A DNA stretch of 64,000 nucleotides. Source: Sulfitobacter sp. THAF37 (GTDB lineage Bacteria; Pseudomonadota; Alphaproteobacteria; Rhodobacterales; Rhodobacteraceae). Below, piece after piece: positions 11,490-46,723 of the stretch. The stretch lies in NCBI RefSeq assembly GCF_009363555.1, contig NZ_CP045372.1:496001-560000 (forward strand), in the 5' to 3' direction. Below the pieces are notes generated by a model. It was given only the letters and a program-made list of their open reading frames with translations, was not told where the DNA came from and searched no databases. The position numbers were made by a program, and so were the translations under genes. Every line of letters starts with the position of its first letter. Position 1 is the first letter of the stretch.

Positions 11490-11773
11490 CAGGCCTTTCC
11501 GTTCAGACGATCCCGGAGCAGCTTTCCGGTCTTGAAAAAGGGTACATGCTTTTCTTCCACATGCACGGTCTCCCCGGTGCGGGGGTTGCGGCCCACCCTG
11601 GCATCGCGCTTCTTGACGGAAAATGCGCCGAATCCGCGCAGTTCGACCCGGTCGCCCTTTGCCATGGCGCCTGTGATCTCGTCGAAGATCGTATTCACGA
11701 TGCGTTCGACATCCCGTTGGTAAAGGTGCGGGTTGTCGTCTGCAATCTTCTGGATCAATTCAGACCGGATCAT
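11489..11773 (-). CDS. ihfB: Integration host factor subunit beta
   Basis: A 94-residue DNA-bending protein of the HU/IHF family. [17 protein letters not shown] and the beta-arm region [30 protein letters not shown] carry the proline that intercalates into DNA. It forms a heterodimer with IHF-alpha, encoded elsewhere. The ATG at 11773 is preferred because the upstream extension (MGGIA) is not conserved-looking and a G-rich ribosome-binding site lies 8 bp before 11773. It is first in the ihfB-lapA-trpF unit, between rpsA and trpF as in other Rhodobacterales. Confidence 0.96.
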
Positions 11774-11798
11774 CGCGATACCCCCCAAGGCACTTAAT

Positions 11799-11804
11799 AT
11801 TATA
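11799..11804 (-). promoter_or_regulatory. Putative -10 box of the ihfB operon
   Basis: A perfect TATAAT on the minus strand within an unusually AT-rich 15-bp stretch, 26 bp before the ihfB ATG. No good -35 hexamer is seen at the right distance, which may mean activator dependence or an extended -10. Confidence 0.45.
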
Positions 11805-12061
11805 TGTCTTCAAGCCGACACTATAGGAAGAAACCCCGCGCCAGTGAAGCCGTGGCGGAGACAGACCCCGACTTTTTTGGCCGCAGAACCCGCTGTTTTT
11901 CGGGCTTTTTTGCATAACTCCAGAACTTGCGCAGCCCTCCGCGGCAAAACCCGGGCCGGGTTTGCGCAGGGCCGGAACCGATTCGCCGCGCATGTCACAG
12001 GACATACAGGCTGACGCCGGGCACCGCAGGACAGCGCCGAAGATGCTACCATGACGTGCAA

Positions 12062-12091
12062 AGGGCCCCGCATTTTTCGATGCGGGGCCCT
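12062..12091 (-). terminator. Intrinsic terminator of rpsA
   Basis: AGGGCCCCGCAT pairs with ATGCGGGGCCCT (12 bp) around a 6-nt loop, 25 bp past the rpsA stop. On the minus strand TTTGC follows. Confidence 0.8.
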
Positions 12092-12116
12092 CTGACGATG
12101 GTCGGTTGCGATGCGC

Positions 12117-13796
12117 TTACTTGTCGTCGTCGCCTTTCAGCGCCGCGCCAAGGATGTCGCCCAGCGATGCGCCGGAGTCGGAGGAGCCGTATTGTTCGAC
12201 GGCCTCTTTCTCTTCGGCGATCTCGCGTGCCTTGATCGACACGCCCAGGCGGTGCGCCTTGGTGTCGACGTTGGTGATGCGGACGTCGACCTTGTCGCCG
12301 ACCGAGAAACGCTCGGGGCGCTGTTCGGCACGGTCACGCGACAGGTCAGAGCGGCGGATGAAGGACTTCATGCCTTCGTATTCCACCTCGATGCCGCCAT
12401 CCTCGATGGAGGTCACGGTGACGGTCACGATGGAGCCGCGCTTCACACCGCCCACGGCTTCGGCGAACTTGTCACCGCCGACACCCTTGATGGAAAGCGA
12501 GATGCGCTCCTTCTCGACGTCGACTTCGGAAACGACCGCCTGGACGACGTCGCCCTTGCGATAGTCCTGGATGGCTTCCTCGCCGCGCTGGTCCCAGCTG
12601 AGGTCGGAGAGGTGAACCATGCCGTCGATGTCGCCGGGCAGACCCACGAACAGACCGAATTCGGTGATGTTCTTGACCTCGCCCTCGACCTCGGTGCCTT
12701 CGGGATGGGTTTCGGCGAAGACTTCCCACGGGTTGCGCATGGTCTGCTTGAGGCCAAGCGACACGCGGCGTTTGGCCTGGTCGATTTCCAGCACCATGAC
12801 TTCCACTTCCTGAGAGGTGGAGACGATCTTGCCGGGGTGGACGTTCTTCTTGGTCCAGGACATTTCCGAGACGTGAACCAGACCCTCGACACCGGGCTCC
12901 AGCTCCACGAAGGCGCCGTAGTCGGTGATGTTGGTCACGCGGCCGGTGTGCACCGTTTCCAGCGGGTACTTGGCGGCAACCAGATCCCACGGATCTTCCT
13001 GCAGCTGCTTCATCCCGAGGCTGATGCGGTGGGTTTCCTTGTTGATCTTGATGACCTGCACCTTGATCGTCTCGCCGATGGCGAGGATCTCGGACGGGTG
13101 GTTGACCCGGCGCCACGCCATGTCGGTCACGTGCAGCAGGCCGTCGACACCGCCAAGGTCAACAAACGCACCGTATTCGGTGATGTTCTTGACCACGCCG
13201 TCGACGTTCTGACCTTCGGTCAGGTTGCCGATGACTTCGGCGCGCTGTTCGGCGCGGGATTCTTCCAGGATCGCACGGCGCGACACCACGATGTTGCCAC
13301 GGCGGCGGTCCATTTTCAGGATCTGGAACGGCTGCTTGAGGCCCATCAGCGGGCCGGCGTCGCGCACGGGGCGCACATCGACCTGAGAACCGGGCAGGAA
13401 GGCGACGGCGCCGCCGAGGTCCACGGTGAACCCGCCCTTCACGCGGCCAAAGATCGCGCCTTCGACACGCTCTTCCGCGGCATAGGCTTTTTCCAGGCGA
13501 TCCCAGGCTTCCTCACGGCGCGCCATCTCGCGGGAGATGACTGCTTCGCCACGGGAATTTTCGACCTGGCGCAGGAAAACTTCGACTTCGTCGCCGACTT
13601 CGATCTTGGGCGCTTCACCCGGATCGGCAAATTCTTTCAGCTCGACACGGCCTTCCATCTTGTAACCGACGTCGATGATGGCCTGACCGGCCTCGATGGC
13701 AATGACCTTGCCTTTGACAACAGACCCCTCCTCGGGGGTGTCCATCTCAAAGCTCTCCTCCAGGAGTGCTTCAAATTCGTCCATAGCGTTTGACAT
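12117..13796 (-). CDS. rpsA: 30S ribosomal protein S1
   Basis: A 559-residue protein of six tandem S1 (OB-fold) RNA-binding repeats, with recurrent motifs such as GAFVDLGGVDGLLH, GAFVELEPGVEGLVHVSEMSW and GLFVGLPGDIDGMVHLSDLSW. It binds mRNA on the 30S subunit and helps initiation on structured or SD-poor messages. The start MSNAMDEFEALLEES at 13796 is preferred; an ATG four codons in is possible. The upstream cmk gene often found next to rpsA is absent from this window. Confidence 0.98.
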   Translation of the reverse strand: MSNAMDEFEALLEESFEMDTPEEGSVVKGKVIAIEAGQAIIDVGYKMEGRVELKEFADPGEAPKIEVGDEVEVFLRQVENSRGEAVISREMARREEAWDRLEKAYAAEERVEGAIFGRVKGGFTVDLGGAVAFLPGSQVDVRPVRDAGPLMGLKQPFQILKMDRRRGNIVVSRRAILEESRAEQRAEVIGNLTEGQNVDGVVKNITEYGAFVDLGGVDGLLHVTDMAWRRVNHPSEILAIGETIKVQVIKINKETHRISLGMKQLQEDPWDLVAAKYPLETVHTGRVTNITDYGAFVELEPGVEGLVHVSEMSWTKKNVHPGKIVSTSQEVEVMVLEIDQAKRRVSLGLKQTMRNPWEVFAETHPEGTEVEGEVKNITEFGLFVGLPGDIDGMVHLSDLSWDQRGEEAIQDYRKGDVVQAVVSEVDVEKERISLSIKGVGGDKFAEAVGGVKRGSIVTVTVTSIEDGGIEVEYEGMKSFIRRSDLSRDRAEQRPERFSVGDKVDVRITNVDTKAHRLGVSIKAREIAEEKEAVEQYGSSDSGASLGDILGAALKGDDDK

Positions 13797-41667: not shown

Positions 41668-43116
41668 TCAGTCGGCGGCGGCCACGCCGTTCAAATCCGC
41701 CGAGAGGTATTTGGGGAACGAGGTGACGATGCTGCGGTACAGTTTGAGAGCCGCGCCATCGGGGTTCTGCGCGCCACCCGAGGGCGGGCCAACCCGTGCC
41801 AGGAATTCCGCCATCGCGGCCCGTGTCTGCGGCCCGAGGATGCCGTCAGCGGACCCCGCTGGCAATTCCTGCGCGTTCAGTTGTTCCTGAAGTCTGCGGA
41901 CGGAGGGAAAGCTGGCGGGCAGGTTCAGCCGGCCCGACAGGCCGCCGGGGTTGCCGATGACGGTAATGCGCCAGTCCCCGCCAAAGAGATCGCTGCCCGT
42001 GACAATGGCCGCGGCGGAGCCATCGCGGCTCATCTTCAGTCGCTGCACCGGTGCATCCATCTGGATCTGCCCCCGGTGGGCCAGGCCGGTGCCGTCGAAG
42101 GAAAACCGCAGGACGATGTCGGCGGCATTGCTGCTGACCTGAATCTCATGGCCCTGTGCATCGGTCGCAAGGTCGGTCAGCACCGCTTCCCGCGCGGCGG
42201 ATGGCATGTATTTGCTCAGATCAATTTCCAGCGCGCCGAGGCGGGACAGGAAATGCCGGTCGCCAAAGGGTTCGATGCGAAACAGCGACAGCCGGTTTGT
42301 GTTGGGGTCGAGGACCAGGATCGCCTTGCTGGCGCCGTCCACGGCAAAGGGCGTATCGCCCAGGTCGATGACCGCGTGGCGCACCGCATCGAAGGTCGGT
42401 TTGCGCTTCTGCCCTTTCTCCGCCTGTTCGACCACAAAGCAGTCGCCGGTCGCGCTGCGGTCCGCGCCGAGGTCGAGCCTGCCGAATTCCAGGGTGGCCT
42501 GTCCGGCGGTGGAGCCGAGATAATGATCGACGCCGTCGATGGCAAAGATCGAAAGTTGCGAAACGCCACCGCAGCGAAACCTCAGCTGCGGATAATTGAG
42601 CCCCCCCTTGGCGGGCAGTTCGGCGCGGCGCGGAAACGGGCTGGCGGTATAGCTGCTGGCGCTGGCCAGGATCGCATTGCCGCCGCTGTCGAAGGCGATC
42701 GAGGAATACTGCGAGATGCCGAGGTTGGAATTGGCATCAACGGCTTCGAAGGCCGCGCCGTCCGCCACCATGTCACGGGCAAAGGCGACGGCCTTGCTGC
42801 CCGCCTGTCCGAACGACCCGCGCGCCCGGCCCAGCCCCACGAAGTACAGGTTCTGATCCGGGCCCAGCACCATTTCGTTGGCCAGGATCTGGGTCGGACC
42901 GTAATGGGTCAGGCGCAGCGGATCGAGCTGCCATTGCAGCAGCTGACCCTCTACCGCGACGAACAGCTCTTCCCCACCGGAGGCGAACTCCAGGCTCTGG
43001 ACCAGCGGCAGGTCGAAGATCCTTTCGAACCGCAGCCTGCTGTCCGTCTCGGCGCCCGCGGTTCCCGCCAGAGTCAGCAGCGAGACCAGCAGCGCAATCA
43101 GGTATCCTTGGCGCAT
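41668..43116 (-). CDS. Exported propeller-like protein with C-terminal peptidoglycan-binding domain
   Basis: A 482-residue secreted protein. Signal peptide MRQGYLIALLVSLLTLAGTAGA; residues about 25-390 read as repeated beta-strands (FASGGEELFVAV, LGPDQNLYFVGLG, FDSGGNAILAS, MSRDGSAAAIVTG), suggesting a WD-like or YVTN beta-propeller. The C-terminal 70 residues (VRRLQEQLNAQELPAGSADGILGPQTRAAMAEFL) match the peptidoglycan-binding fold. Its first 19 bases overlap the protease gene. The function is unknown; a scaffold anchored in the cell wall is plausible. Confidence 0.75.
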   Translation of the reverse strand: MRQGYLIALLVSLLTLAGTAGAETDSRLRFERIFDLPLVQSLEFASGGEELFVAVEGQLLQWQLDPLRLTHYGPTQILANEMVLGPDQNLYFVGLGRARGSFGQAGSKAVAFARDMVADGAAFEAVDANSNLGISQYSSIAFDSGGNAILASASSYTASPFPRRAELPAKGGLNYPQLRFRCGGVSQLSIFAIDGVDHYLGSTAGQATLEFGRLDLGADRSATGDCFVVEQAEKGQKRKPTFDAVRHAVIDLGDTPFAVDGASKAILVLDPNTNRLSLFRIEPFGDRHFLSRLGALEIDLSKYMPSAAREAVLTDLATDAQGHEIQVSSNAADIVLRFSFDGTGLAHRGQIQMDAPVQRLKMSRDGSAAAIVTGSDLFGGDWRITVIGNPGGLSGRLNLPASFPSVRRLQEQLNAQELPAGSADGILGPQTRAAMAEFLARVGPPSGGAQNPDGAALKLYRSIVTSFPKYLSADLNGVAAAD

Positions 43117-44876
43117 TCGTTTTCCCTTGGCAGGCTTTCTTCACCATCCGCGACCGCCTCGATGAGGCTGGGACCATCTTTAAAGATTTTACACGGCATT
43201 GCCGAGCCTTCATTCGCCCAATCGTCATCCCGCAGCAGATCGACCAACGCGCGGGTATGGACCTTGTAGCGTGTTTCGCCGCTGTCACCGATGGCGACAC
43301 GCTCGAACACCTGAAAGTAAAAGATGCCGTTCCAGTCGCTGTCGGGATAGCGCCGCCTTGCCCCCCGGAGCAGATCCACCAGCGTGTTCGGTGAGCGCGT
43401 CCACTGATAGCTGCCCTGCGTCACACCGCCCGCGTCCGCGGCGCCTGACCCGGTGTGCGCAACCGGATAGCAGCTGTCGGGCATTGTGCCGCGCTGTTTG
43501 AAGACGCCGTCAAGGGGCGTTTCACTGGGTTCGAACGGCCCTTCCAGCGGCACGTAAAAGTTGCGGTTGGTCGGGTCCTCGTCATTGGGGATGCCAGCCG
43601 GCACGTTCCAGGCAATGGGGGTAAAGCAGAAGGCCAGTTCGTCGGCGTAGGGCGGACCTGACAGGGCCCGGTCGTAGGAAAACATGATCGCCACGTCGTT
43701 GTTGGTGCTGATGGACCCTGCGAGGTTCCACTCCGGACTGCCCAGTTCGCTTGAAATGCGCGTTACCGTCGGGCGCAGGGGCGGCAGGTTGATCGGCTCT
43801 TCCACCAGTTTCTTGTTGGCCGCATGCAGCATTTCGTTGGCGGCCAGAATTTCCAGACCCTCTGTCTGCGGCAGCCCGGACGTGCCCGTGCCTGCCCGCT
43901 CAGCCTCGGTGGCGAGCCAGTTCTGGTTGCGCATCAGCGTATTGATCTGGACCATCAGCATGTCGTTGCGCGATGACAGCGCCGCGAATTTATCCAGAAG
44001 CATGTCCTTTTCGCCGTGCAGGGTCGCGATGGCCGCCTGCGCCGCATCAAGGTCCGCGCGCAGGTCGTCTATCTGACGCAGCCGGACCCGTTCGCTGCAG
44101 GGAATATCGAGGTATTCCCGCGACCCGATCTGCAAGGGAATGAGATCGAGAAAGGATTTGACCAGCGTGACATGGACCTCGTCGCGCGAGGTATCGCCGC
44201 TGTCGGCGTTGATGGCCGATACCAGCCCGATGACGCGGTTCTCGGGGTCCAGCACGGGGGAGCCGCTGTCACCCTCCACGATCGTTCCCCTGGGGCCGCT
44301 CATCACCGCGACGCTGCCTGCATCGCCCAGGTTCGACCGGCCATAATCCTCAAGCCGGATTGCCACCTCTCTGGGCTGGAACACGTTGCCGTCATTGAAT
44401 TTCAGGACGCGGTAGACGCCCCCCTTGCGAATGTCGCAGGCCGTCAGGTCGAAGGGGATCGCCTGCAGATCCGGAAAGCCGATGCGCGCGGCGTCGATGC
44501 TTTCGAACGGGGAAGGCGTAACGATGCCGCGGGGGTACTTTTCGGCCGGGACGCCCTGGAAAATGCGCGTCCCGCCGACCTCTACCGTGACATCGCGGCT
44601 GGGGATGAACACCTTGTCGGAGGCGGACATGTTCTTGTAATTCAGCGCCTTGCCGGTGACGTGGTCGGCCGTGATCAGAATGCCCGGCGCCACCGCCCAG
44701 GCAGTGCCCTTGACCGGCTGCAATGCCGTGCCGTCGGCACCCAGCCCCTTGACGATCACCCGGAACAGCTGCCGGGTCTCCAGATGGTCGGGCCAGTCCT
44801 GCGCCGCGGCCCCGCAGGCCGTTGCCGCCAGCCAGACCGCCGCCCCCCGCAGGCAGGTCGCAAAACGATGTCTCAT
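43098..44876 (-). CDS. Exported trypsin-like serine protease with coiled coil
   Basis: A 592-residue secreted protein: signal peptide (about 1-25, ending CGAAAQ), a chymotrypsin-fold protease domain (35-245) with a full catalytic triad by inspection, His72 in ITADHV, Asp128 in FESIDAAR and Ser205 in EGDSGSPV. It is followed by a coiled coil (about 262-320) and a C-terminal domain of ~225 residues that I do not recognise. Its ATG overlaps the lipase stop by 4 bp, and its end overlaps the propeller gene by 19 bp. Substrates may include the coupled proteins. Confidence 0.8.
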   Translation of the reverse strand: MRHRFATCLRGAAVWLAATACGAAAQDWPDHLETRQLFRVIVKGLGADGTALQPVKGTAWAVAPGILITADHVTGKALNYKNMSASDKVFIPSRDVTVEVGGTRIFQGVPAEKYPRGIVTPSPFESIDAARIGFPDLQAIPFDLTACDIRKGGVYRVLKFNDGNVFQPREVAIRLEDYGRSNLGDAGSVAVMSGPRGTIVEGDSGSPVLDPENRVIGLVSAINADSGDTSRDEVHVTLVKSFLDLIPLQIGSREYLDIPCSERVRLRQIDDLRADLDAAQAAIATLHGEKDMLLDKFAALSSRNDMLMVQINTLMRNQNWLATEAERAGTGTSGLPQTEGLEILAANEMLHAANKKLVEEPINLPPLRPTVTRISSELGSPEWNLAGSISTNNDVAIMFSYDRALSGPPYADELAFCFTPIAWNVPAGIPNDEDPTNRNFYVPLEGPFEPSETPLDGVFKQRGTMPDSCYPVAHTGSGAADAGGVTQGSYQWTRSPNTLVDLLRGARRRYPDSDWNGIFYFQVFERVAIGDSGETRYKVHTRALVDLLRDDDWANEGSAMPCKIFKDGPSLIEAVADGEESLPRENECAKDT

Positions 44877-46582
44877 CCTTCGTCCTCCAGCACGTACAGC
44901 AGGTCCTGCGCGATGCTCCGGCCCGCGAGGTCCGCGCTGAGCACATAGACCCCTTCGCCCGGCGCGGTGAGAGTGGCGGTAAAGACGGCCAATCCCCCGG
45001 CGGCAAAGGAAAGATCCCCGTTGATGCCGACGGATTGCTGCCAGATCGGCGTCGCTTCGCCATAGGCCGTCAGCGTCAGATCGACCCGCGCATCCGCCAG
45101 CGCGTCCTCGTCGAAGATCTGCGCCGGGTCCGCGTTCATCTCCAGCCGTAACTCGACGGTTTCGCCCTCGCCCGAGATCTGGGGCATGGCATTCAACGCC
45201 AGCGACTTGACGTCGCCGCCGCCCAGGAAAATCCGTTCCGAATTCACCATCTGCGGAACGCTCTGAACCGGGTCGATCAGGATGTTGTAGACATAGCGGT
45301 GCACCTCGTCGCTGCCGACGATGAAGGGATGCTTGGAGCGCAGGACAAAGGCCTGGTTGCCTTGCGCCAGCGCGCTGCCTTCATAGACCGTGCCATCGCC
45401 CCGCGCGCTGACCCGGTAGGTGATCCCGGCGCCGTCGCCCGCAGCCCCCCGCGCGACATACATCGTCTCGCGCGTGCCATCGACAAGCCGGCCCACCATC
45501 ACGTGATTGGCATCGACCGAAGCCGGCAGCCCCTGGGCATAGACCTGATCCATCACCGCCCGGTTCTGCAATCCGATCCGCAGCAGCGCCCGTTTTGCCG
45601 CGCAATGAACATAAGGACATGGCGTGACCTCGAAACCGAGGACCAGCTTGGCCCAGTACGTTTCATCGAGCGCGGCCACCACGCTGTTGCCGGGGCGGCC
45701 CGCCTCGCCCACGGCGCAGCAGTTCTCGTAGGACGGGATCAGTTCATAGGGGCCGACCATGGACAGCAGGATGTCCTGAATCTCGCGTTTGCCGCCGATC
45801 AGGATCTGGCTGAGCCTGCCCCAGCCGTCGATCAGCGTGCTGGCCACGTTGACGGAGCCCTGATGCGGTGTCGCGATTTCGATGAAGGTATGCAGGCGCG
45901 ACGCCTCGGAAAAGCGGTCGTCGGCCCCGATGCCGCGCCATCCCCCGTCGCCCAGGCTGCCGTAGGCCGCGGCGCAGGTCGCCTCCCGCGTTTCGGGCGG
46001 CAGGTCGGTTTCGACCTCGGGGTCGGTGCAGAAATCCTGCGGGCGCAGGTCCGACAGGAACGCCCGCGTCAGCAATCCGCCCATCGAATGGGCCACGATG
46101 TCGAAATCCTCTCCTGCGGGGATGTTCGCCCTGACGAAATCGTTCAGCAGAACCGCATTCGCGAAATTGGAGCGCCGCCAATCATAGGCAAAGACGAAAA
46201 GGTCCGTGCCCTCGGTATAGTTGCCCAGGATCTCGCGCTGCGCGGCACTGTCGAAAATCGACCTCTCTCCCACCAGAAAGTCGATCAGGCCGGAATAGAA
46301 CCCGATGTTGATGGTGCCGAACACCAGCGGCACGTCGCGCAGCGCATCAGTGGGCGTCAGCGGCACCGCCGCGCCGGTCTCGGGCAGCAGGTCAAGCTGT
46401 CGGAAGTTGGATGCCTTGAGAGAGCTGGCCCGGCCCCAGATGACATTTCCGCTGTCATCGGAAAGCTCGGACCCGACGATTCCGGGAATGACGATCAGCT
46501 TGCGATCGACCTGCGCCATCGCAGGCAGCGCCGTAAGCGTCAAGGCAAGAGCCAGAAGAAATTGAAACACGCGACGCGTCAT
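44873..46582 (-). CDS. Exported LCAT/PDAT-like alpha/beta-hydrolase (lipase or acyltransferase)
   Basis: A 569-residue secreted protein. Signal peptide MTRRVFQFLLALALTLTALPAMAQ; the lecithin:cholesterol acyltransferase-type core starts KLIVIPGIVGSEL and contains FAYDWRRS, the nucleophile Ser166 in AHSMGG, an ATPHQGS segment and GPYELIPSYENC. The later catalytic Asp is probably in GDGTV and the His in RSKHPFIVGSDEVH. The C-terminal ~110 residues look like a beta-sandwich. It likely hydrolyses or transacylates phospholipids outside the cytoplasm. It heads the three-gene operon with the protease. Confidence 0.8.
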   Translation of the reverse strand: MTRRVFQFLLALALTLTALPAMAQVDRKLIVIPGIVGSELSDDSGNVIWGRASSLKASNFRQLDLLPETGAAVPLTPTDALRDVPLVFGTINIGFYSGLIDFLVGERSIFDSAAQREILGNYTEGTDLFVFAYDWRRSNFANAVLLNDFVRANIPAGEDFDIVAHSMGGLLTRAFLSDLRPQDFCTDPEVETDLPPETREATCAAAYGSLGDGGWRGIGADDRFSEASRLHTFIEIATPHQGSVNVASTLIDGWGRLSQILIGGKREIQDILLSMVGPYELIPSYENCCAVGEAGRPGNSVVAALDETYWAKLVLGFEVTPCPYVHCAAKRALLRIGLQNRAVMDQVYAQGLPASVDANHVMVGRLVDGTRETMYVARGAAGDGAGITYRVSARGDGTVYEGSALAQGNQAFVLRSKHPFIVGSDEVHRYVYNILIDPVQSVPQMVNSERIFLGGGDVKSLALNAMPQISGEGETVELRLEMNADPAQIFDEDALADARVDLTLTAYGEATPIWQQSVGINGDLSFAAGGLAVFTATLTAPGEGVYVLSADLAGRSIAQDLLYVLEDEG

Positions 46583-46699: not shown

Positions 46700-46723
46700 G
46701 GCGGGTGACTTGCATCACCCGCC
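46700..46723 (-). terminator. Terminator between mltB-like gene and lipase operon
   Basis: GGCGGGTGA pairs with TCACCCGCC (9 bp, 6-nt loop). On the minus strand TTCTTT follows, on the plus strand CCTTCTTTT. It is 30 bp past the lytic transglycosylase stop and may act in both directions. Confidence 0.7.

Follow-up and report, generated by a model that had tools for sequence, protein, structure and literature searches.

Most described protease-triggered effector systems of bacteria act, to our knowledge, in the cytosol or at the inner membrane. In bacterial gasdermins, a membrane-damaging, cytosolic pore former is triggered by a protease that is encoded in the same operon. In this paper we analyzed a 64,000-nucleotide stretch of the 4.26 Mb genome of Sulfitobacter sp. 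THAF37 (NZ_CP045372.1, positions 496,001 to 560,000), here called the window, in whose numbering coordinates are given. On its minus strand, positions 41,668 to 46,582 hold three genes for an LCAT-family lipase/acyltransferase, a serine protease with a predicted trypsin fold, and a putative beta-propeller protein with a peptidoglycan-binding-like tail. This trio resembles the gasdermin systems in its operon-encoded protease and putative membrane-damaging partner, but differs in that the partner is a lipase with a signal-peptide-like start. We propose tentatively, and with less than even confidence, that the three genes work as a single unit, in which the protease gates an exported lipase.

Other described systems also couple a hydrolase to a protease. 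NucA-trypsin conflict systems (System 3 of Kaur et al., 2020; PMC7159879) are, like the trio carriers, mostly alphaproteobacterial; as outlined in that source, a hydrolase effector lies in an operon with one or more trypsin-like proteases, activation by a proteolytic cascade was proposed, and lysozyme domains have been recruited in some. Their effector is a nuclease and some members carry EAD1 domains or transmembrane segments, whereas the effector of the trio would be an LCAT-type lipase with a signal-peptide-like start, and its partners a coiled-coil protease and a propeller with a peptidoglycan-binding-like tail. No nuclease, including the NucA-type endonuclease, was recognised by Pfam among the three trio proteins. 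The coupling of a trypsin-like protease to a hydrolase effector is seen here in the overlapping genes and in a clade-wide pairing, and the trio may be analogous to these proposed systems while acting on lipid.

A further likeness is to secreted lipid acyl hydrolases and acyltransferases under bacterial protease control, which are activated by serine or metalloproteases according to the account in PMC5701174. There, Aeromonas SatA/GCAT is activated by the serine protease AspA or by trypsin in a disulfide loop, and Legionella PlaC is activated by ProA, a control that is thought to protect the producer. Both are GDSL enzymes, whereas the trio lipase is an LCAT-type alpha/beta hydrolase without a GDSL match in Pfam, and the description of SatA/AspA and PlaC/ProA given in that source includes no propeller partner. 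Streptomyces umbrella toxins (PMC11062931) are also secreted multi-protein sets with trypsin-fold and beta-propeller parts, but they are described with an inactive trypsin fold, an ALF-repeat toxin carrier and a UmbB adaptor, while in the trio the protease triad is intact and a Pfam scan, made on the trio only, found no ALF-repeat UmbC- or UmbB-type domain. In the open-access literature, searched by titles and beginnings of abstracts on lipase/trypsin, LCAT, conflict and injection-system topics, no description of a lipase-protease-propeller set was found. What is new here is a lipase clade with trypsin pairing and a double-cysteine mark, and protease/propeller cassettes that have no lipase.

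The lipase gene (44,873 to 46,582; 569 amino acids) is the first of the trio, followed by the protease gene (43,098 to 44,876; 592 amino acids) and the propeller gene (41,668 to 43,116; 482 amino acids), with overlaps of 4 and 19 bp as read in the initial annotation. That annotation had made its idea of a system depend on co-occurrence of the three genes in related genomes, and they are indeed found together, in the same order, down to 23% identity. By tblastn over 80 lipase loci, the best 80 of 317 confirmed relatives, all three genes lie together in five (L007 to L011). Adding S. alexandrii (L119) and the window brings the trio loci to seven, of which four are in Sulfitobacter-group genomes and the others in Roseibium, Aliishimia and Tateyamaria. 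All have the order lipase-protease-propeller, with lipase/protease gaps of -4 to +4 bp and protease/propeller gaps of -19 to -4 bp. Identity to the window lipase across L007 to L011 is 81, 81, 41, 43 and 36% (local alignments); for the protease it is 70 and 75%, then 23-30%, and for the propeller protein 75 and 75%, then 23-29%, some of these latter alignments being partial. The closest relatives of the window genes are in Sulfitobacter sp. EhC04, DFL-14 and S. alexandrii, where the trio lies, as in the window, between mltB and an aldo-keto reductase gene; in the other genera it is located elsewhere, and among nine window genes blasted the trio alone is common to the Roseibium, Aliishimia and Tateyamaria loci. 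Protein database records also hint at the association indirectly, in that identical lengths of the longest contig suggest protease and lipase on six contigs and all three proteins on four among the first 21 lipase rows. Since the order and the abutting or overlapping arrangement are kept in distant genomes, the trio is no chance cluster.

The set is rare. The lipase is found at E<=1e-20 in 4 of 58 genus genomes. At E<=1e-6 the protease profile matches 4 of 394 genomes of the family, partially in the case of G743 and G661, and one of 385 genomes of the class, which is the window's own. A single-sequence search of 120 family genomes found one protease, one propeller protein and three lipases, two of which are weak. 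Among the four Sulfitobacter-group genomes, dN/dS is 0.10-0.16 for the lipase, 0.12-0.19 for the protease and 0.12-0.20 for the propeller protein, values that are rough since they are simple NG86 counts with dS of 0.43-1.29.

The lipase passes the Pfam LCAT model (PF02450) with 28.5 bits against a cut-off of 21, and the best solved relative of its profile is group XV phospholipase A2 (E 5.8e-4). The Ser, Asp and His of the LCAT family are all present and invariant in a 20-row alignment: Ser166, the nucleophile in AHSMGG (46,085 to 46,087), which is also Ser in 82/82 rows of a wider set; Asp396 in GDGTV (45,395 to 45,397), which we take from the LCAT family pattern to be the catalytic acid; and His418 (45,329 to 45,331), presumably the catalytic base. 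The protein can be regarded as an LCAT-type lipase/acyltransferase with predicted phospholipase or acyltransferase activity. It shares with LCAT and group XV phospholipase A2 the sequence family, the catalytic Ser motif and the Asp and His, but belongs to a distinct bacterial clade with a vicinal cysteine pair, Cys288-Cys289 (45,716 to 45,721) in the window, and, in 12 of 15 rows, a trypsin-fold neighbour.

This pairing extends beyond the trio. In a careful tree of 82 lipases, whose bootstrap is not fully settled, all 12 rows with an adjacent trypsin-fold gene fall in one clade of 15 (support 100/95). The count is thus 12/15 in the clade against 0/67 elsewhere, where a flank of 1.5 kb or more is visible on both sides in 51 loci and on one side or both in 66, so that a few neighbours may be unseen. 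The trypsin-profile scan covered the 80 lipase loci and a Rhizobium etli plasmid locus (L143). Because the profile was trained on eight sequences, among them those of the window, L009, L010, L011 and L143, these loci cannot count as independent finds, nor can the near copies L007 and L008; the other five of the 12 paired loci (L012, L013, L015, L016 and L017) took no part in building it. The pairs outside the trios belong to a Nitrospirales metagenome-assembled genome (L012), Hyphomicrobium (L013), Bradyrhizobium (L015 and L016), the R. etli plasmid, and a metagenome-assembled genome titled Deltaproteobacteria and labelled Myxococcota (L017). In L012, L013, L016, L017 and L143 the partner scores above the Pfam Trypsin_2 cut-off and has a signal-peptide-like start by scan; the start in L015 was judged by eye. 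Some partners have extra domains, FGE-sulfatase in L016 and MORN in L143. The double-cysteine (CC) dipeptide, counted in the open frame, is present in 14/15 clade rows and 1/67 others, the missing row being L026, whose lipase is cut by the contig end. Besides L026, the unpaired clade rows are L014, which has a different partner, and L018, with 942 bases after the lipase. HtrA-like genes that were not counted as adjacent lie 1.6 kb away on the other strand in L064, outside the clade, and 1.7 kb away in L026, inside it, and L013 has a second weak trypsin-profile match ~5.7 kb away. Taxonomy alone does not explain the split, since Alphaproteobacteria and Nitrospirota stand on both sides of it.

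Three of these loci have further genes of interest (positions are those of each locus). In the R. etli plasmid CP007643.1 (L143, 6,067 to 11,308) the LCAT lipase and trypsin-MORN genes overlap by 4 bp and lie shortly before a Pycsar pair (PycTIR, PycC). Near the Hyphomicrobium pair (L013, 13,429 to 17,124) there is a TPR-CHAT caspase-like protein of 1231 amino acids with a signal-peptide-like start by eye. In the Nitrospirales genome (L012, 3,574 to 4,887) the lipase and trypsin are followed by a third gene for a 437 amino acid lipoprotein-like protein without a family match, perhaps a propeller, which has no sequence match to the window propeller.

The protease falls below the Pfam cut-offs, with 21.3 bits against 27.6 for Trypsin_2 (PF13365) and 16 against 20.6 for Trypsin. 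Its AlphaFold2 model (mean pLDDT 76.7, pTM 0.47) predicts a MarP/HtrA-like trypsin-fold domain at residues 37-245 (44,142 to 44,768), and the top folds in a search with this model, whose list is taken up by matches to the trypsin domain, are MarP, DegP and DegQ, which are periplasmic stress proteases. Both the double-barrel trypsin fold of the model and a His/Asp/Ser triad are found, with His72, Asp128 and Ser204 (in GDSGSP) invariant in a 21-row alignment; the triad is intact. A single long helix was modelled at residues 262-326 (43,899 to 44,093), and for residues 263-335, 16 of 21 heptad a/d positions are hydrophobic, a level matched in 13 of 5000 shuffles. Residues 382-565 (43,182 to 43,733) are modelled as a beta-rich C-terminal domain that is common to the protease of genome G743. 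The window protease differs from MarP and the HtrA-DegP proteases in that it has no PDZ domain in Pfam and instead carries, in the model, the long helix and the beta-rich domain.

The AlphaFold2 model of the third protein (mean pLDDT 80.0, pTM 0.82), together with a fold search, predicts a WD40-type beta-propeller at residues 26-395 (41,932 to 43,041). It is followed by a PG_binding_1-like segment at residues 404-438 (41,803 to 41,907), which matches positions 3-37 of the 57 in the Pfam model PF01471 (35/57) with a marginal 23.8 bits (cut-off 23). PG_binding_1 is matched at E<=1 by 13 of 15 members of the propeller-protein alignment, the window included; the copy on a Paracoccus plasmid (L142) is below the cut-off with 21.2 bits, and the profile of the tail matches the peptidoglycan-binding domains (PGBDs) of solved endolysins and lytic transglycosylases. 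Wall anchoring through this marginally scoring segment is plausible. Matches to the full propeller profile in 27 of 385 class genomes were rejected as evidence for the trio, as the listed rows except the window match only the PGBD end (positions 381 on).

All three proteins begin with a hydrophobic segment of signal-peptide type in a simple hydropathy scan, as do the relatives scanned (31 proteins with the trio), which supports export by a route that would be of the Sec type. Of the three segments that of the protease scores lowest (1.59), and since it includes a lipobox-like match the protease could be a lipoprotein. The signal peptides, the coiled coil, the propeller-like body and the peptidoglycan-binding tail that the initial annotation had read at this locus agree with these results, the first by hydropathy only and the last with a marginal score. 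Its catalytic residues stood for Ser166 of the lipase and for His72 and Asp128 of the protease, while the serine that it had numbered 205 is Ser204 in the alignments.

One possible mechanism that fits these data is as follows. Sec-type signal peptides would take all three proteins across the inner membrane. The propeller protein would be periplasmic, a platform and probable sensor that its C-terminal domain probably fastens to peptidoglycan. The protease may bind the propeller protein, or oligomerise, through its long helix. Upon a sensed cue it would cleave, and so activate or release, the lipase, which could then attack envelope phospholipid, either of the cell itself or of an invader or contact partner. 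The initial annotation had suggested a lipase "activated or guarded" by the protease; this is strengthened by the wider lipase/trypsin pairing and by the published protease-activated secreted acyltransferases, and the protease probably controls the lipase. Near some relatives there are a Pycsar pair, a CHAT protein and contractile injection genes, and this scattered context leans towards a conflict role, in defence or antagonism, while the neighbours of the window trio do not; predation, defence and remodelling are indistinguishable.

Clear relatives of the protease and the propeller protein without a lipase exist at two loci. In G743 (L115), which has no tblastn match to the lipase, the propeller/PGBD protein is 35% identical to that of the window, and the protease shares the C-terminal region, aligning at 26% over window residues 199-568 (365-568 by tblastn); upstream lie another trypsin and a fusion of lysozyme-like (GH19, below cut-off), PGBD and trypsin domains. 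On the plasmid of Paracoccus sp. MC1862 (NZ_CP067227.1; L142, 5,398 to 22,261) a divergent protease relative (22%) and a propeller/PGBD protein (32% identical) accompany a trypsin and the same lysozyme-like fusion (49% to that of L115), beside a contractile injection gene cluster with a PASTA protein. In G661 (L116) the fusion is accompanied by a PGBD protein and by two trypsins, one of which has another residue in place of the catalytic Ser, as read from the alignment; injection genes that are 48-78% identical to those of the Paracoccus plasmid lie ~2.4 kb away. An 8 kb contig of G512 (L151) carries the fusion together with a trypsin and a PGBD protein. As propeller homologues the PGBD proteins of L116 (hhalign probability of only 57%) and L151 (short matches only) were treated as uncertain. 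The fusion is found at E<=1e-40 in one of 189 family genomes, G512.

Like L142, G661 (L116 and L148) has the fusion, a trypsin and related injection genes. At 2,586 to 6,319 of L116, a few kb from the trypsin cassette, there are also an EAD-type trypsin and an amidase-trypsin-NUC-type nuclease protein, both recognised by eye, which resemble the published NucA-trypsin conflict system.

Contractile injection was considered as a constant partner of the trio and rejected, as the sheath gene is absent from 7/7 trio genomes searched. It is present in G743 (on a different contig), G661 and G512, and in 29 of 189 family genomes, G512 among them. A link to contractile injection could at most hold for the lipase-less cassettes, in very few cases that were chosen after the fact and with sheaths that may be prophage. 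A broader hypothesis, which we regard as rather unlikely in its full form, is a kind of exported conflict module not described before, with an active trypsin-fold protease as the gate of a swappable periplasmic envelope hydrolase, be it the LCAT lipase or the lysozyme-like-PGBD-trypsin fusion of G743 and the Paracoccus plasmid, with the protease and a wall-bound propeller sensor kept constant and some members beside contractile injection genes.

The genes around the trio in the window are mltB upstream, a lytic transglycosylase with a PGBD, an aldo-keto reductase (both by Pfam) and a copper-type P-ATPase, CopA (by eye). As mltB was found in 14/14 trio-less genus members examined (of 54 trio-less), it can do without the trio, which would best be regarded as an operon of its own. 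A 9-bp GC-rich hairpin of 24 bases between mltB and the lipase gene (46,700 to 46,723) could be an operon boundary, but this function is a guess, since its terminator-like score is on the plus strand, opposite to the operon, and such sites are no commoner than in shuffles (6 against a mean of 6.9). A clean empty site was not obtained from four trio-less genomes, in which the aldo-keto reductase and CopA genes do not follow mltB within ~6 kb. A recent foreign insertion in the window was considered and rejected on the even GC content of the region. Phage or plasmid cargo was likewise considered and rejected, as the window protease has no match in plasmid or phage collections; for the lipase, three distant relatives are on Rhizobium plasmids, and 3 of 63 pattern matches among viral contigs encode a relative. 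The best of these, at the end of an IMG/VR contig (L139), is a lipase 82% identical to that of the window, cut by the contig end and preceded at the mltB position by a 397 amino acid open frame with a PGBD-like match; this contig, filed as viral, is probably bacterial chromosome. A phage-type integrase lies ~1 kb after the Roseibium trio (L009).

Several observations weigh against a gated lipase with a role in conflict. The neighbours of the window trio are ordinary and its GC content is even across the region. No PADLOC 2023 defence model matched the trio across its length; the best are RT-Protease_XI models, at the protease domain only and with no more than 21.5 bits, and no reverse transcriptase domain was found by Pfam in the trio proteins. 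In Bradyrhizobium macuxiense (L014), where both flanks are visible, the clade lipase is partnered by a 398 amino acid lipoprotein-like protein (11,515 to 12,711) with no Pfam match and not by a trypsin. Cleavage of the lipase by the protease is a step that we infer. A disulfide-loop cleavage site shared across the clade was considered, but the candidate pair Cys185-Cys203 is present in 6/6 trio-type lipases and aligned in 0/9 other clade rows, which leaves a shared site unsupported. The lipobox-like match could also make the exact location of the protease ambiguous.

In the main rival, a periplasmic phospholipase recycles or remodels the lipid of the outer membrane under stress, with an HtrA-like protease and a peptidoglycan-bound propeller as its quality-control or chaperone partners and without killing or defence. 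The MarP, DegP and DegQ folds, the low dN/dS and the Sulfitobacter-group site among ordinary genes, adjoining a lytic transglycosylase with a PGBD, all fit such housekeeping. Yet housekeeping factors are seldom so patchy as a lipase in 4/58 genomes of the genus and a protease relative in 4/394 of the family and 1/385 of the class, and the retained mltB has no need of the trio; we judge this explanation rather unlikely. Another hypothesis is a secreted antibacterial assembly, loosely like the Streptomyces umbrella particles, in which the propeller binds the target, the trypsin-fold/coiled-coil protein is a connector and the lipase is the toxin. UmbA is described with a trypsin-like domain that lacks catalytic activity (PMC11062931), in contrast to the intact triad here; no ALF-type repeat was found in the trio by Pfam, the lipase is a separate gene, and the PGBD-like tail speaks for proteins that stay at the cell wall; we regard this assembly as quite improbable.

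The trio could also serve nutrient scavenging, with three exported hydrolases or binding proteins that digest lipid and protein and are clustered for joint expression. Sulfitobacter and Roseibium are marine heterotroph lineages, and both the lipase and the protease are plausible digestive enzymes. But the trio is all that the Roseibium, Aliishimia and Tateyamaria loci have in common among the blasted genes, so that no further pathway gene travels along, the propeller with its wall-binding-like tail is unexplained, and the pairing of lipase and trypsin across the clade is more than loose digestion would call for; we give scavenging only a small chance. Chance neighbours with unrelated roles, an idea with nothing for it beyond the rarity of the trio, are refuted by an arrangement that other genera keep, at other genomic sites and with identities as low as 23%, and can practically be dismissed.

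If a protease-gated exported lipase is the right reading, such systems would have a periplasmic version that can be tested directly, made up of a conserved lipase, a protease of its own and a propeller that may be bound to the wall, each of them beginning like an exported protein. The clade signature, a CC dipeptide together with an adjacent trypsin-fold gene, offers a simple rule for finding more of them. The lipase/trypsin pairing would also be old, as its loci are labelled Pseudomonadota, Nitrospirota and Myxococcota. Another question is raised by the protease/propeller pair beside contractile injection genes, seen clearly once and with less certainty a second time: does it have a role in lysis, release or priming? 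If the broader class exists, protease-triggered cell-death systems would have their periplasmic counterpart in these exported conflict modules.

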